Origin: Streptomyces sp. NBC_00539
GTDB lineage: Bacteria; Actinomycetota; Actinomycetes; Streptomycetales; Streptomycetaceae
Assembly: GCF_036346105.1 (NCBI RefSeq)
Contig: NZ_CP107811.1
Coordinates: 806,001-870,000, forward strand
Direction: 5' to 3'
Length of the DNA stretch: 64,000 bases
Below are positions 45,964-51,324 of the stretch, piece by piece. Numbering within the stretch: position 1 is the first letter of the stretch; each line of letters begins with the position of its first letter. The position numbers were made by a program, and so were the translations under genes. The notes under the pieces are model-generated. The model saw nothing but the letters and a program-made list of their open reading frames with translations. It was not told where the DNA came from and searched no databases.

Positions 45964-47541
45964 TCAGTCCGTGCGGTCGTCGGTCGTGCGGTCCTCGGTC
46001 GTGCGGTCCTCGGTCGTGCGGTCGCGGAGCACCGTCTCGACCGTGTCCGCCTCCTGCGCGTTCTTGTCCGGGCGGTACCGCAGCACCCGGGCGAAGCGCA
46101 GCGCGACCCCGGCCGGGTAGCGCGGGGAACGCTGCAAGCCGTCGTAGGCGATCTCCACCACGAGCTCCGGACGTACCCACACGGTGTAACCCTCTTCGCG
46201 CACCGCGAGTTCCCGCAGCCGTTCGGTCTGCCAGCGCAGCATCTCGTCGGTGAGGCCCTTGAAGGTCTTGCCGAGCATCGCGAAGCTTCCGTCCGCGGCC
46301 CGTGCGCCCAGGTGCAGGTTGGACAGCAGGCCGGTGCGCCGCCCGTGGCCCCACTCGGCGGCCAGCACGACGAGGTCCAGGGTGTGCACCGGTTTCACCT
46401 TGAGCCACTGCTTGCCGCGCCGGCCGGCGGCGTAGGGAGAGTCGAGGCCCTTGACCACCACGCCCTCGTGCCCCCGGCGCAGCGCTTCGGCCGCGAACGC
46501 CTCGGCGTCGGCCGACTGCTCCGCCGGGTCCTCGACGGCCAGTCGGCGCACCCGGGAGGTCTCGGGCACCAGCTCCGCGAGCACCGCGTACCGCTCGCGG
46601 ACCGGCAGGTCGAGCAGGATGTCGTCCCCGGCGGCCAGGACGTCGAAGAAGTAGGCGCTGACGGGCAGGGTCTGGCGGGCGGCCGCCACGTCCAGCCGGG
46701 ACCCGACCCGGCTCGCGATCTCCTGGAAGGGCACCGGGCGGCCGTCGGCGCCCTCCCCGATGACCTCGCCGTCGAGGATGAACCGGTCGCCGGGCAAGGT
46801 GAGGGCGAGGGCGGCCACCTCGGGGAGCCGGCCCGTGATCTCGTCGAGGGAGCGGGTGTAGACGCGTACGTCCTCTCCCGTGCGGTGGACTTGTACCCGG
46901 ATGCCGTCCAGCTTCTCCTCCACGGCGCAGGGCCCGAGCGCGGCCACCGCGTCGGCCACTGAGGGGGCGGTGCCCGCGAGCATCGGCTGGACGGGCCGGC
47001 CGACGCGCAGCGTGACCGCCCGCAGGGCTTCGGCGCCTTCGGCGAGGACGGCGGCCCCGACCCGGGGCAGCGAGCCGTCCAGCATCACGGCCCGGCGCAG
47101 TGCGGCGGCGGGCACCCCCGCGGCGGCGGCCACCCCTTCCAGCGCGACGGCGTCCAGGGCGCCCTGGCGCACCTCTCCGGACAGCAGGCTCCGCAGGAAC
47201 CGCTGTTCGGGGCCGGTGGCTGCGCCGAACAGGCCGTCCAGGAGGCGGCGCCGCTCGGCCTGCGAGCCGGCACCGGAGACGGCGGCGAGGCGGGTGACGG
47301 CAGCGTCGACGGCGCCCACGGTCAGGGTGGGCCGCTCGGCGGGCGCGACCTCCCGGCCGAGCGCGCTCCAGCCGATTCCGGGGCGGCCCTGCGGCAGCCG
47401 TCCGGCGAGGTACGCGATGACAAGCGCCGCCTCCTCGGGCGGCGTGGCGGCGAACAGCTCCGCGAGCAGGGCGGTCTTGCGGGAGCGGGCGGAGGTCTCG
47501 GCGACCTCCCGGGACACGCGAGCGACCTCGGCCAGCAGCAT
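45964..47541 (-). CDS. ATP-dependent DNA ligase
   Basis: About 525 residues from ATG 47541 (MLLAEVARVS); ATG 47550 is possible. It seals nicks through an enzyme-AMP intermediate on Lys210 in EEKLDGIRVQVHR. Other motifs are FILDGEVIG, EGVVVKGLDSPYAAGRRGKQWLKVKP and the oligonucleotide-binding C-terminal domain with TVWVRPELVVEIAYDGLQRS (20 of it). N-terminal ~180 residues form the DNA-binding helical domain of LigB-type actinobacterial ligases. The last ~22 residues repeat T-T-E-D-R, encoded by tandem 15-bp units. Confidence 0.92.
   Translation of the reverse strand: MLLAEVARVSREVAETSARSRKTALLAELFAATPPEEAALVIAYLAGRLPQGRPGIGWSALGREVAPAERPTLTVGAVDAAVTRLAAVSGAGSQAERRRLLDGLFGAATGPEQRFLRSLLSGEVRQGALDAVALEGVAAAAGVPAAALRRAVMLDGSLPRVGAAVLAEGAEALRAVTLRVGRPVQPMLAGTAPSVADAVAALGPCAVEEKLDGIRVQVHRTGEDVRVYTRSLDEITGRLPEVAALALTLPGDRFILDGEVIGEGADGRPVPFQEIASRVGSRLDVAAARQTLPVSAYFFDVLAAGDDILLDLPVRERYAVLAELVPETSRVRRLAVEDPAEQSADAEAFAAEALRRGHEGVVVKGLDSPYAAGRRGKQWLKVKPVHTLDLVVLAAEWGHGRRTGLLSNLHLGARAADGSFAMLGKTFKGLTDEMLRWQTERLRELAVREEGYTVWVRPELVVEIAYDGLQRSPRYPAGVALRFARVLRYRPDKNAQEADTVETVLRDRTTEDRTTEDRTTDDRTD
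45966..46023 (-). repeat. tandem 15-bp repeats at the ligase C-terminus
   Basis: About four units of CGGTCGTGCGGTCCT-type sequence (last copies diverged) encode the DRTTE repeat at the end of the DNA ligase. In-frame repeat length means slippage would change tail length without disrupting the enzyme. Confidence 0.75.
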
Positions 47542-47722
47542 GCGGACCATAGTGCCGCCGTCGGGCGCCCCGCGCAGGTCGGGGCGCGGGTCGCGGCGAG
47601 GGGGCCCGGGCGACGCGTACCGCGAGTGCGGTATCCAGGGCCGCCGGTGTAGTCCTCGAGGACGTCCCGGGCTCAGCCTGAGGGCTCCTCGGCGCACGCG
47701 GCCGGACCCGTAGGGTTCCCGT

Positions 47723-50458
47723 ATGAAGCTCCGACTCCCCCGGCGCCGCCGGGACCGTCTCCTCGCCGGCGCCGCCGCGGTCGCCGTCCTGGCGGCGACC
47801 GGCACCGTCACGGCCGTGGCCTCCGCCGACGGCCCGGCGGTGCACCGCATGGACCGGGTGGTGCAGATGCCCGGTGCCGGGATCGACCTCTCGTACTTCA
47901 CCGCCGGCGAGGGGGAAGGGGGCACGGGGAAACGTCCCGCCGTCCTCCTCGGCCACGGCTTCGGCGGCAGCAAGGACGACGTCCGCGCGCAGGCGGAGCG
48001 GCTGGCCCGCGACGGGTACGCCGTCCTCACCTGGTCGGCGCGCGGTTTCGGCCACTCGGGCGGCCGGATCGGGCTGAACGACCCCGACCACGAGGTCAAG
48101 GACGTCTCCCGGCTCATCGACTGGCTCGCCCTGCGCCCCGAGGTGCGCCTCGACGCGGCCGGCGATCCGCGCGTGGGGGTCGCCGGGGCCTCCTACGGCG
48201 GTGCGGCGGCGCTCCTGGCCGCCGGGTACGACCGCCGTGTGGACGCGATCGCCCCGCAGATCACGTACTGGAACCTCGCCGACTCCCTCTTCCCGAACGG
48301 CGTGTTCAAGAAGCTGTGGGCCGGTGTCTTCTTCACCACCGGTTCGGCGCAGGGCCTGACGCCGGGTCAGCCGGCCGCCGGGCCCCGAGCCGCCTCCGCC
48401 ACCGGATCCGCGGCCGCCTCCGCGGCCGGTTGTGGACGGTTCCAGCCGGAGCTCTGCGCGATGTACGAGCGGGTCGCGGTGTCCGGGAAGCCCGACGACG
48501 AGGCCCGTGCGCTGCTGGAGCGGCGCAGCCCGTCCGCCGTCGGCGGCGCGATCAAGGTGCCGGCCCTGATCGTGCAGGGCCAGGACGACTCCCTCTTCCC
48601 GCTGGACCAGGCCGATGCCATGGCCAGGGCCATCTCCGCGAACGGTGCTCCGGTGGCGGTGGACTGGGCGGCCGGCGGCCATGACGGGGGGATGCGCGAG
48701 GCGGTCCGGGTCGAGGCTCGGGTGACCGCCTGGTTCGACCGGTACCTCAAGGGCGACGAAGGCGCGGCCACCGGTCCCGTGTTCCGGGTCTCGCGCTCCG
48801 GCGGACTGGACTCGACCGACGGCGCCGTGCGGCTGCGGGGGGCGAGCGGCGACGAGTACCCCGGCCTGTCCTCCGGCCCGCGCGGGTTCGCCCTCGTCGG
48901 CCGGGAGCAGAGTTTCGTCAACCCGGCCGGTGCGAGCCCGCCGTCGCTGTCCTCGCTGCCCGGCATCGGCGGACAGCTCGCCGCCTTCGGAGCGGGGCTG
49001 TCGCTCGACTTCCCCGGGCAGAACGCCCGGTTCGAGTCGGAGCCGCTGGGCGAGGGCGTACGGATCACCGGCACCCCGACCGTCAAGGTGAGGGTGGGGT
49101 CGACGGCCGCGGACGGTTCGGCGGTGCTGTTCGGCAAGGTGTACGACGTCGGGCCCGACGGGCGGCAGGCGGTGCTGCCGGGTCAGTTGGCGGCGCCGGT
49201 ACGGGTGACGGACGCGGGGCGGGGCCGGAGCGTGGAGCTGCGGCTTCCGGCCGTCGACCACGCCGTCGAGGCCGGGCACCGGCTGCGACTGGTGGTGGCG
49301 GCCACTGACTTGGGCTACGCCTCCCCCGCCGAGCCGGCCACGTACACCGTGGCCGTGGAGGGGCCGTTGACGGTGCCCGTCGCCGACGGGGTGCGGACGG
49401 CGCCCGGCGGACTGCCCGCCTGGACCTGGGGGCTGCCGCTCGCGGCGGTGGCACTGGCCGCGGGGATCTTGGGGATCCGGAGGACCGGTGGGGGTCGCGG
49501 CGGGACCCGGCCGGGCGCACCGCAGCCCGAACCCGCGCGGGCCGACGTACCCCTGGAGATCACCGGGCTGACGAAGCGCTACGCGAAGGCGCGCGACCGC
49601 TACGCCGTAAAGGACCTGTCGTTCCGGGTGGAGAAGGGCCAGGTGCTCGGTCTGCTCGGGCCCAACGGCGCCGGGAAGACCACCACCTTGCGGATGCTGA
49701 TGGGGCTGATCACCCCGGACGCCGGGGAGATCCGGGTGTTCGGGCACGCGGTGCGGGCCGGGGCCCCGGTGCTGTCGCGGGTCGGGGCCTTCGTGGAGGG
49801 CGCCGGTTTCCTGCCGCACCTGACGGGCCGGGCCAACCTGGAGCTGTACTGGCAGGCCACCGGCCGGCCCGCCGAGGACGCGCACATGGCGGAGGCGCTG
49901 GAGATCGCCGGGCTCGGCGACGCCCTGGAGCGCGCGGTGCGCACGTACTCGCAGGGCATGCGGCAGCGGCTCGCGATCGCGCAGGCCATGCTCGGGATGC
50001 CGGACCTGCTGATCCTGGACGAGCCGACGAACGGCCTGGACCCTCCGCAGATCCGGGAGATGCGGGACGTGATGATCCGGTACGCGGCCGGCGGGCGGAC
50101 CGTGATCGTCTCCAGCCACCTGCTGGCGGAGGTCGAGCAGTCGTGCACGCACCTGGTGGTCATGGACCGCGGGCGGCTCGTGCGGGCCGGTGAGGTCGCG
50201 GAGATCACCGGTGGCGGGGACACCCTGCTGGTGGCCCTGGCCGGGCCGGTGGACGAGGGCGTGGTCGAGAAGGTGGCGGCGCTGGAGGGAGTGGGTTCCG
50301 TGGTGGCCGCAGATGCGGGGCTGCTCGTACGGCTCGACGGTGCGAGCGCCGCCGGGCTGATCGCCGAACTCGTCCGGCTGGAGGTCCCGGTGTCCGCGGT
50401 GGGCCCGCACCGGAGGCTGGAAGACGCGTTCTTGACGCTGATCGGAGGTGCGGCGTGA
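47723..50458 (+). CDS. fusion: exported S15/alpha-beta hydrolase - membrane helix - cytoplasmic ABC ATPase
   Basis: 911 residues. An N-terminal signal-like segment (1-36, RRRRDRLLAGAAAVAVLAAT) leads to an X-Pro dipeptidyl-peptidase (S15)-like hydrolase: Ser157 in GASYGG, Asp288 in GQDDSLFP, His320 in GGHDGG, then a jelly-roll domain to about 550. One helix at 566-585 (AWTWGLPLAAVALAAGILGI) returns the chain to the cytoplasm. Residues 608-911 are an ABC-2-type ATPase with Walker A GPNGAGKT (646-653), YSQGMRQRLAIAQAM and LLILDEPTNGLDP. The GTGA overlap with the permease gene makes the transporter. It may couple extracellular cleavage to transport. Confidence 0.88.
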   Translation: MKLRLPRRRRDRLLAGAAAVAVLAATGTVTAVASADGPAVHRMDRVVQMPGAGIDLSYFTAGEGEGGTGKRPAVLLGHGFGGSKDDVRAQAERLARDGYAVLTWSARGFGHSGGRIGLNDPDHEVKDVSRLIDWLALRPEVRLDAAGDPRVGVAGASYGGAAALLAAGYDRRVDAIAPQITYWNLADSLFPNGVFKKLWAGVFFTTGSAQGLTPGQPAAGPRAASATGSAAASAAGCGRFQPELCAMYERVAVSGKPDDEARALLERRSPSAVGGAIKVPALIVQGQDDSLFPLDQADAMARAISANGAPVAVDWAAGGHDGGMREAVRVEARVTAWFDRYLKGDEGAATGPVFRVSRSGGLDSTDGAVRLRGASGDEYPGLSSGPRGFALVGREQSFVNPAGASPPSLSSLPGIGGQLAAFGAGLSLDFPGQNARFESEPLGEGVRITGTPTVKVRVGSTAADGSAVLFGKVYDVGPDGRQAVLPGQLAAPVRVTDAGRGRSVELRLPAVDHAVEAGHRLRLVVAATDLGYASPAEPATYTVAVEGPLTVPVADGVRTAPGGLPAWTWGLPLAAVALAAGILGIRRTGGGRGGTRPGAPQPEPARADVPLEITGLTKRYAKARDRYAVKDLSFRVEKGQVLGLLGPNGAGKTTTLRMLMGLITPDAGEIRVFGHAVRAGAPVLSRVGAFVEGAGFLPHLTGRANLELYWQATGRPAEDAHMAEALEIAGLGDALERAVRTYSQGMRQRLAIAQAMLGMPDLLILDEPTNGLDPPQIREMRDVMIRYAAGGRTVIVSSHLLAEVEQSCTHLVVMDRGRLVRAGEVAEITGGGDTLLVALAGPVDEGVVEKVAALEGVGSVVAADAGLLVRLDGASAAGLIAELVRLEVPVSAVGPHRRLEDAFLTLIGGAA

Positions 50459-51324
50459 CGGCTGTGGTGGAGACGGCCCCGGGGTACCGGCCCGGGCGGA
50501 CGCTCCCGCTGCGCGTGGAGGCGCTGCGGCAGTGGCGCAGGCGGCGGACGCTGGTGATGGGCGGGGTGCTGGCGGCGCTGCCCTTCATCATGATCATCGC
50601 GTTCGCGGTGGGCGGAGGTCAGGACGGCGGCGGCCGGGGCGGCGCGGAGGGGCGGGTCACGCTCATCGACACCGCCACCGCCTCGGGCGCCAACTTCGCG
50701 GCGACCTGCCTCTTCGTGTCGGCGGGGTTCCTGCTGGTGGTGCCGGTGGCCCTGTTCTGCGGGGACGCGGTGGCGTCGGAGGCGAGCTGGTCCTCGCTGC
50801 GCTACCTGCTGGCCTCGCCGGTGCCGAGGGCGCGGCTGCTGTGGAGCAAGCTCGTGGTCGCGCTGGGGTTCAGTCTGGCGGCGATGGTGCTGCTGCCGGT
50901 AGTGGCGCTGGCGGCGGGCACGGCCGCGTACGGGTGGGGCCCGCTCAGGCTGCCCACCGGCGGTGCGCTGGACGCCGGTGACGCCGTGCCGCGCCTGGCG
51001 CTGGTCGTCGTGTTCGTCTTCGTGTCGCAGCTGGTGACGGCGGGGCTGGCGTTCTGGCTGTCGACGCGGACCGACGCGCCGCTCGGCGCGGTGGGCGGTG
51101 CGGTCGGGCTGACGATCGTCGGGAACGTGCTGGACGCGGTGACCGCGCTCGGCTCCTGGCGGGAGTTCCTGCCCGCGCACTGGCAGTTCGCGTGGGCGGA
51201 CGCGCTCCAGCCGCAGCTGGAGTGGGGCGGGATGATCAAGGGTGCCGCGGTGTCGGTGTCGTACGCGGTGGTGCTGTTCGCGCTCGCGTTCCGGGGGTTC
51301 GCCCGGAAGGACATCGTGTCCTGA
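50455..51324 (+). CDS. ABC-2-type permease partner of the hydrolase-ATPase fusion
   Basis: 289 residues; GTG overlapping the upstream TGA by four bases. Six predicted helices: the first near 35-55 (LVMGGVLAALPFIMIIAFAV), then an extracellular loop, and five more, with the ABC-2 signature ASEASWSSLRYLLASPVPRARLLWSK between helices two and three (first 20: ASEASWSSLRYLLASPVPRA). It supplies the membrane pore for the fused ATPase. A strong terminator follows. Confidence 0.92.
   Translation: MTAVVETAPGYRPGRTLPLRVEALRQWRRRRTLVMGGVLAALPFIMIIAFAVGGGQDGGGRGGAEGRVTLIDTATASGANFAATCLFVSAGFLLVVPVALFCGDAVASEASWSSLRYLLASPVPRARLLWSKLVVALGFSLAAMVLLPVVALAAGTAAYGWGPLRLPTGGALDAGDAVPRLALVVVFVFVSQLVTAGLAFWLSTRTDAPLGAVGGAVGLTIVGNVLDAVTALGSWREFLPAHWQFAWADALQPQLEWGGMIKGAAVSVSYAVVLFALAFRGFARKDIVS

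Follow-up and report, generated by a model that had tools for sequence, protein, structure and literature searches.

A predicted surface hydrolase fused through one helix to an ABC ATPase in Streptomyces and other Actinomycetota

Can an enzyme that works outside the cell be built into the same chain as an ATPase that works inside it? A gene pair of Streptomyces sp. NBC_00539 raises this question. It lies in a stretch of 64,000 nucleotides (contig NZ_CP107811.1, positions 806,001 to 870,000), called the window below, and coordinates are positions in that stretch. The first gene (47723-50458, plus strand) is a single open reading frame (ORF) that starts with ATG and encodes 911 amino acids plus a stop codon. 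Its product, the hydrolase-ABC fusion, consists, in order, of an export signal, an alpha/beta-hydrolase (Peptidase_S15 plus PepX_C), one helix and a complete ABC ATPase. The next ORF (50455-51324, plus strand) starts with GTG, overlaps the stop codon of the fusion gene by 4 nt and encodes an ABC-2 permease of 289 amino acids.

We found Pfam matches above the curated cut-offs for Peptidase_S15 (residues 72-307), PepX_C (432-538) and ABC_tran (629-770) in the fusion, and for ABC2_membrane_2 in the permease. An initial reading made from the DNA letters alone (the sequence-only reading) had proposed a signal-like N-terminus, a single helix, and a full ABC ATPase followed by a permease. Hydrophobic peaks at residues 14-32 and 567-585 match the first two of these, and the ABC_tran match, the conserved ATPase motifs and the overlapping permease ORF bear out the rest. 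The features are as follows.

47723..50458, plus strand: fusion gene, predicted extracytoplasmic alpha/beta-hydrolase, helix and ABC ATPase (911 amino acids plus stop)
47762..47818, plus strand: N-terminal hydrophobic signal, residues 14-32 (hydrophobic peak 1.89; N-region charge)
47936..48643, plus strand: Peptidase_S15 alpha/beta-hydrolase domain, residues 72-307 (PF02129, 77.9 bits, gathering score 23)
48191..48193, plus strand: nucleophile Ser157, motif G-x-S-Y-G-G (136/136)
48431..48457, plus strand: Cys237 and Cys245, C-x7-C, likely disulfide (both in 134; both absent in 2; 1 not covered)
48587..48589, plus strand: catalytic Asp289 (136/136)
48680..48682, plus strand: catalytic His320 (136/136)
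49016..49336, plus strand: PepX_C beta domain, residues 432-538 (PF08530, 50.5 bits, cut-off 22.5)
49418..49477, plus strand: single membrane helix, residues 566-585, then a conserved basic cluster (Lys/Arg excess after the helix, 137/137)
49553..50455, plus strand: ABC ATPase of the ABC-2 exporter type, residues 611-911, with Walker A, signature, Walker B and H-loop
50455..51324, plus strand: ABC-2 type permease, 289 amino acids, GTG start, about six hydrophobic segments

Active sites, membrane topology and gene pairing

Both enzymes of the fusion look active in essentially all members of the family. We compared 137 distinct fused proteins from Actinomycetota, the number left after three duplicate pairs were merged. 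One of these (L041) ends before the catalytic residues, and counts for the triad are therefore out of 136. The triad is of the CocE/NonD type, and Ser157, Asp289 and His320 are each invariant in the 136 proteins that reach them. The sequence-only reading had named Ser157, Asp288 and His320. The serine and the histidine were right and the acid was wrong by one: position 288 varies (S, T, Q, D, A, N and others), and we rejected it in favor of Asp289. An inactive triad in all homologues, a possibility raised in the same reading, is excluded at the level of sequence, and we likewise rejected a dead hydrolase. In the ATPase, Lys652, Ser743, Gly745 and Asp766 are each present in 137 of 137 proteins, Glu767 in 136 of 137, and His799 in 136 of 137 with one gap. 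We presume that a single shortened protein (L140) accounts for the exceptions at Glu767 and His799. Past residue 835, the C-terminal end is short in five other proteins.

The shortened protein comes from a Blastococcus locus (L140, 4755-7205) in which the fusion ORF stops early inside the ATPase and the permease lies about 450 nt further on. A frameshift or sequencing error is possible there. For the family as a whole, a sequencing or annotation artefact was ruled out: the fusion is one ORF in all 137 distinct proteins, from many genomes. We also ruled out two neighboring genes misread as one, as there is no internal stop in the fused matches listed.

The predicted topology, with the N-terminus inside, the hydrolase outside and the ATPase inside, is well supported by three features that agree: the charge around the N-terminal hydrophobic stretch, the charge around the helix, and a cysteine pair in the hydrolase. 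This is the one-helix arrangement put forward in the sequence-only reading, and its conservation across the family fits as well. A Met start could be placed in 113 of the 137 proteins, and in every one of these the region before the N-terminal hydrophobic stretch is more positive than the region after it. Lys and Arg are more abundant in the 12 residues after the helix than in the 12 before it in 137 of 137 proteins; therefore the hydrolase is expected on the outside and the ATPase on the inside. An earlier count of net charge over 15 residues (135 rows), which lets acidic residues cancel, unlike the Lys/Arg count, gave 103 rows with more charge after the helix, 29 equal and 3 with less. In 133 of 137 proteins, no 19-residue stretch in either enzyme body is as hydrophobic as the helix. 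A third hydrophobic peak of the window fusion (851-869), in the C-terminal part of the ATPase, was not taken as a membrane helix.

Cys237 and Cys245 are kept or lost together (counts in the feature list). The C-x7-C spacing is found in 132 of 136 proteins. Two proteins (L130 and L153) have two cysteines spaced otherwise, and because of this an earlier alignment paired the cysteines in only 77 of 79. Both losses of the pair fall within the same genus and may be one event. The C-x7-C pair is also present in all four unfused paralogues that we read (L042, L043, L044 and L045), S15-type, apparently secreted proteins from other genomes of the genus. By eye, these have no C-terminal helix, and a signal-like N-terminus is clear in three of the four.

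It is conceivable that the fusion is a precursor that is cut near the helix, such that free hydrolase is released and a separate ATPase stays behind. The sequence is compatible with such a cut. However, the helix and its basic cluster are conserved, as for a permanent anchor, and we consider precursor cleavage very improbable.

The sequence-only reading had suggested a search for homologues with the same domain order and permease neighbor. Among loci collected by similarity, 140 of 141 tested are fused in one ORF, and 139 of the 140 fused loci have a permease gene no more than 700 nt downstream, in the same orientation. In the remaining one (L030), 34 bases are left before the contig end. All 140 fusion genes stop with TGA, and the preceding base is A in 94 (giving ATGA), G in 32, C in 12 and T in 2. 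Judging from base composition, a GTGA overlap can occur by chance in GC-rich DNA, but ATGA should not occur this often. The permease frame is the frame opened by such an overlap in 76 of 79 contig loci, counted by eye; L140 is among the three others. A dedicated permease is thus well supported by gene order and conservation.

Distribution and descent of the fusion

The fusion is present in almost all genomes sampled from the genus and, less regularly, elsewhere in the phylum. In a neighbor sample of 61 genomes, it is present in 36 of 37 from the same genus, 4 of 15 from the same order and 1 of 9 from the same class. Within the genus, the hydrolase of one genome (G008) is cut by a contig end, and one genome (G031) is without the fusion. 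When the phylum was sampled evenly (296 genomes), matches at E 1e-80 or better came from 22 genomes, of which 20 have the fusion and two (G109 and G277) have only an unfused ATPase with its permease. Taken over both samples, 42 of 44 genomes of the genus have the system, and G031 and G228 lack it. The genome of NBC_00539 itself has a single fusion copy, and its next match to the hydrolase half is at 33% over part of it.

We also scanned contigs with a 15-row alignment of the hydrolase half and kept the best 80 of at least 551 relatives. Of the 80 kept loci, 79 are fused and have the permease; the exception is L134. Because similarity to the window protein, or to the hydrolase half of it, was the basis for collecting these loci, 79/80 is not a frequency among all hydrolases. 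The recurrence of the architecture in same-genus genomes, the phylum sample and contig loci is beyond chance. Named hosts include Streptomyces, Kitasatospora, Streptacidiphilus, Geodermatophilus, Blastococcus and Modestobacter, and further Herbidospora, Actinomadura and Salsipaludibacter (class Nitriliruptoria). A search of plasmids returned three records. Two of them, from Tsukamurella tyrosinosolvens and Nonomuraea gerenzanensis (no annotation shown for the latter), cover at least 80% of the query, and the third matches the ATPase only. Although the fusion is widespread in the genus and reaches other classes of Actinomycetota, the only annotated copy we read, that of T. tyrosinosolvens, carries just the generic names 'alpha/beta fold hydrolase' and 'ABC transporter permease'.

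A fusion outside Actinomycetota is not established, as searched by the contig scan (best 80 of at least 551) and the plasmid search only. One kept locus (L164) is labeled Bacillus sp. AZ43, the sole Bacillus among the 80; its fusion protein is 85% identical to a Blastococcus one, and the record is probably mislabeled or contaminated.

The trees are in line with an old fusion. In a tree of 57 of the 155 ATPase domains collected, 39 fused ATPases fall in one clade (support 100/99), which also holds the unfused ATPases of G109 and G277, placed next to a fused one. Two changes between the fused and unfused states are required on this tree. They are most simply read as an ancient fusion from which the hydrolase was lost once afterwards; the alternative would be two gains. 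The unfused state of G277 is clear, with several kilobases upstream read, whereas in G109 only about 1 kb lies upstream. The unfused ATPase and permease pairs within the fused clade, L072 (1005-2749) and L073 (6304-8288), would each be a natural exporter without a fused hydrolase.

In a tree of the hydrolase (42 of 142 domains; the rooting is unsure), L134 falls among the fused members and the secreted-type paralogues lie on a long branch. L134 (145-2199), from a metagenome-assembled genome of Geodermatophilaceae, encodes the hydrolase and helix, with a stop directly past the basic cluster, on a 4.1-kb contig without the ATPase. It may be a natural split or an artefact of assembly or decay.

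These data bear on the notion that the shared chain serves for anchoring and stoichiometry only, with the hydrolase acting on external material independently of transport. The notion is in line with the unfused paralogues, which share the cysteine pair and are apparently secreted, and with L134, which keeps the hydrolase and helix with no ATPase on its contig. In contrast, the order of fusion, helix and permease has been retained in Actinomycetes and Nitriliruptoria, two named classes at the least, as well as in other genomes of the phylum, and no locus that we read had the hydrolase and ATPase as separate adjoining genes, in searches that favored fusions. We regard anchoring alone as distinctly unlikely.

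Protein families and candidate functions

The hydrolase half belongs with the CocE/NonD and Peptidase_S15/PepX_C hydrolases. In addition to the Pfam matches listed above, it passes the NCBIfam model CocE_NonD (TIGR00976; 98.2 bits, cut-off 66.3). Among solved structures, the closest chains across most of the domain bear the name Lipase (8yzo and 8yzn), and a profile search against solved structures also returned cocaine esterase and polyester hydrolases. Because these are the nearest structures, a label of X-Pro peptidase is not to be trusted. A search of the literature on the Lipase structure entries found nothing relevant, and no molecule name among the structure matches (43 sequences; the best 60 of 279 in a second list) suggested a fused ABC ATPase.

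The ATPase and permease resemble ABC-2 exporters of the DrrAB/Bcr/LanFEG type in the type of ATPase and in having a separate ABC-2 permease, with scores below the cut-offs of those families. The best models for the ATPase are of the exporter type (DrrA, lantibiotic protection, NodI and GldA), and it scores under the cut-off of each, as with DrrA (TIGR01188; 177.5 bits, cut-off 312.45) and lantibiotic protection (TIGR03740; 167.9 bits, cut-off 309.75). The window permease passes the ABC2_membrane Pfam model PF12679 (38.0 bits, cut-off 27.2) and falls short of MutG (16.2 bits, cut-off 117.2) and MutE (13.3 bits, cut-off 145.2). It has no clear solved relative: the best single-sequence match has an E of 0.19 (2opk) and the best profile match an E of 0.26 (NosY). 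A survey of 27 permeases (E up to 0.01) matched seven families, with MutG and MutE each matched weakly by 4 of the 27. We know of no ATPase of the DrrAB/Bcr/LanFEG type with an extracellular N-terminal enzyme or a preceding helix. Exporters of bacteriocins with a C39 domain also carry a protease and an ABC part in one chain. The C39 domain is a cytoplasmic cysteine protease, whereas the window fusion has a serine hydrolase that is predicted to be outside. A role in anti-phage defense was rejected: PADLOC gave four matches, all within the ATPase part.

Our preferred reading is a two-gene exporter of the ABC-2 type in which each ATPase subunit would come with a hydrolase of its own on the outer face of the membrane. 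Based on the stoichiometry of ABC transporters, the complex would be built from two copies each of the fusion and the permease, with two hydrolase domains at its outer mouth. Driven by ATP hydrolysis inside, an amphiphilic compound containing an ester or amide would reach the outer surface, where the tethered Ser-Asp-His hydrolase (an esterase or acylase) would cleave it, such that export and processing are tied to one complex. We read the system as an exporter because of the ABC-2 setting, and we place the chemistry on emerging material, or material held in the outer leaflet, because the outer hydrolase is intact. The sequences show the fusion, the intact active sites of both enzymes, the topology-type charge, the gene pairing, and the age and conservation of the system. 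Formation of the complex, direction of export, class of substrate, coupling, and cleavage acting on the exported compound are what we infer. We put an exporter with a tethered outer hydrolase that cleaves the exported ester or amide at slightly short of even, and it is our leading candidate. It is possible that, as the sequence-only reading proposed, a single chain links cleavage outside with the use of ATP inside.

A precedent comes from prodrug-activating peptidases of the ZmaM, EdeA and PamJ type, which are described as ClbP-like peptidases with a C-terminally fused ABC half-transporter (PMC9889268). As in the window fusion, an extracytoplasmic-type hydrolase and an ABC part are in one chain, and the ClbP-type peptidase processes an exported compound (PMC9889268). 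According to that source, the ZmaM-type enzyme is of the S12 beta-lactamase type with SxxK, in contrast to the alpha/beta-hydrolase triad here; no S12 beta-lactamase-type domain was among the 16 Pfam families that match the fusion (E up to 0.1). ClbP, as described there, has a three-helix membrane domain, and ZmaM-like proteins add the ABC half-transporter in the same chain, whereas the window fusion has one helix and a separate ABC-2 permease gene. ZmaM-type genes are placed there in natural-product clusters, and no such cluster was recognized here, with no cluster finder run. The window fusion is thus not a ZmaM member (unrelated enzyme, other layout), yet by analogy it may work similarly, and the ZmaM type counts in favor of export-coupled cleavage.

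The sequence-only reading knew of no characterized transporter of this design. That needs qualification: the enzyme family and layout are different in the ZmaM type, but the idea of an outside hydrolase fused to an ABC part has a partial precedent there. A search for literature on the hydrolase-ABC fusion family found none in open-licence papers, mostly by title and abstract, and an earlier description elsewhere is possible. If export and cleavage are coupled, the fusion would be a second, unrelated way to put a processing enzyme on an ABC transporter, in a phylum rich in antibiotics.

Several findings weigh against the exporter with a tethered hydrolase. Nearly all sampled genomes of the genus have the system, which is not tied to one compound, unlike the prodrug systems. 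Two genomes of the genus, G031 and G228, lack it at 100% estimated completeness, which suggests that the system is not strictly essential. The unfused pairs of G109 and G277 inside the clade imply that the exporter can work without the hydrolase. Finally, no adjoining partner gene was found across families, with a rough gene caller. Because of the near-universal presence in the sampled genus and the lack of a recognized biosynthetic neighborhood, a housekeeping role at the envelope would be preferred over a role with a single antibiotic.

A different use of the same parts is that the ABC part gates the hydrolase as a motor: ATP cycles on the inside would, by way of the helix, pull on or release the outer enzyme, as in FtsEX, and no substrate would cross the membrane. 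The covalent one-helix link between ATPase and hydrolase is in keeping with this, and the ATPase does match the FtsE model (TIGR02673), at 103.3 bits and under the cut-off of 264.85. FtsEX sets a precedent for an inside-out signal to an extracellular hydrolase (RipC, PcsB or EnvC) from a cytoplasmic ABC ATPase (PMC10694151). It differs in that its hydrolase is a separate protein bound by FtsX, its permease is of another family, and its substrate is peptidoglycan. By analogy, FtsEX-RipC is a functional analogue for ATP-controlled hydrolysis outside. The permeases here, however, are of ABC2_membrane families: FtsX and MacB families are absent among the four Pfam and four NCBIfam matches of the window permease (E up to 0.1) and among the seven families matched in the survey of 27. 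Loops between the hydrophobic segments of the window permease are at most about 32 residues, leaving little room for outer domains of the size that FtsX has, and the ATPase and permease persist as a pair without a fused hydrolase in G109 and G277. We consider gating unlikely. We give the same low standing to a broader form, an ATP-driven surface enzyme in which the ABC ATPase, by way of the helix and permease, mechanically feeds or gates the outer serine hydrolase for a housekeeping task at the envelope of Actinomycetota.

The system could also detoxify by expelling and cleaving, in that membrane-active compounds (lipopeptides or lantibiotics) would be cleared from the membrane and inactivated outside by the hydrolase. 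The TIGR03740 match of the ATPase and the weak MutG and MutE matches, both immunity permeases, are of the kind expected, and a conserved operator-like dyad upstream of the fusion gene (see below) suggests regulated expression. On the other hand, the scores for the lantibiotic families are under the curated cut-offs, and near-universal presence in the sampled genus is more like housekeeping. We think detoxification quite unlikely.

Neighboring genes and the upstream region

We clustered the neighbors of the fusion gene (980 genes from 106 stretches, called with a rough GC-frame caller that let the fusion be recovered and clustered in 104 stretches and the permease in 61). Neighbor families are common to a few dozen loci at most and are mostly patterned by lineage, and they gave no useful functional hint. 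Families named by eye include aldehyde dehydrogenase, a VWA-type lipoprotein, threonine synthase, HAD phosphatase and DNA ligase. By eye, the commonest are metabolic or envelope genes.

Upstream of the fusion gene, no RNA leader was found by Rfam at the gathering threshold (47300-47900). Three elements are present.

47618..47633, no strand: dyad TACCGC-N4-GCGGTA, a probable operator, 105 nt before the ATG
47652..47663, no strand: second, looser dyad, 71 nt before the ATG and 34 nt downstream of the first
47711..47716, plus strand: TAGGGT, a -10-like element, 6 nt from the ATG

Among rows with 65% or more identity to the window protein, the window itself counted, the first dyad is found with up to two mismatches in 63 of 92, where shuffles give an expectation of 0.75; the shuffle preserves base composition only, and kinship among rows inflates the contrast. 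It is found in none of 41 more distant rows. Of 133 rows, 38 have a form with an exact left half, at distances of 91 to 136 nt from the estimated start, and many Streptomyces-type relatives have dyads about 90-136 nt before the fusion start. There are two other exact copies in the genome of NBC_00539. One lies inside a gene and the other just behind a gene, and for this reason no regulon was proposed for the dyad.

We take TAGGGT to be a -10-like element from the promoter consensus. Among close relatives, 33 of 92 have it 3-14 nt from an ATG or GTG, as do 2 of the 41 distant ones. With this element so close to the ATG, the transcript may be leaderless.

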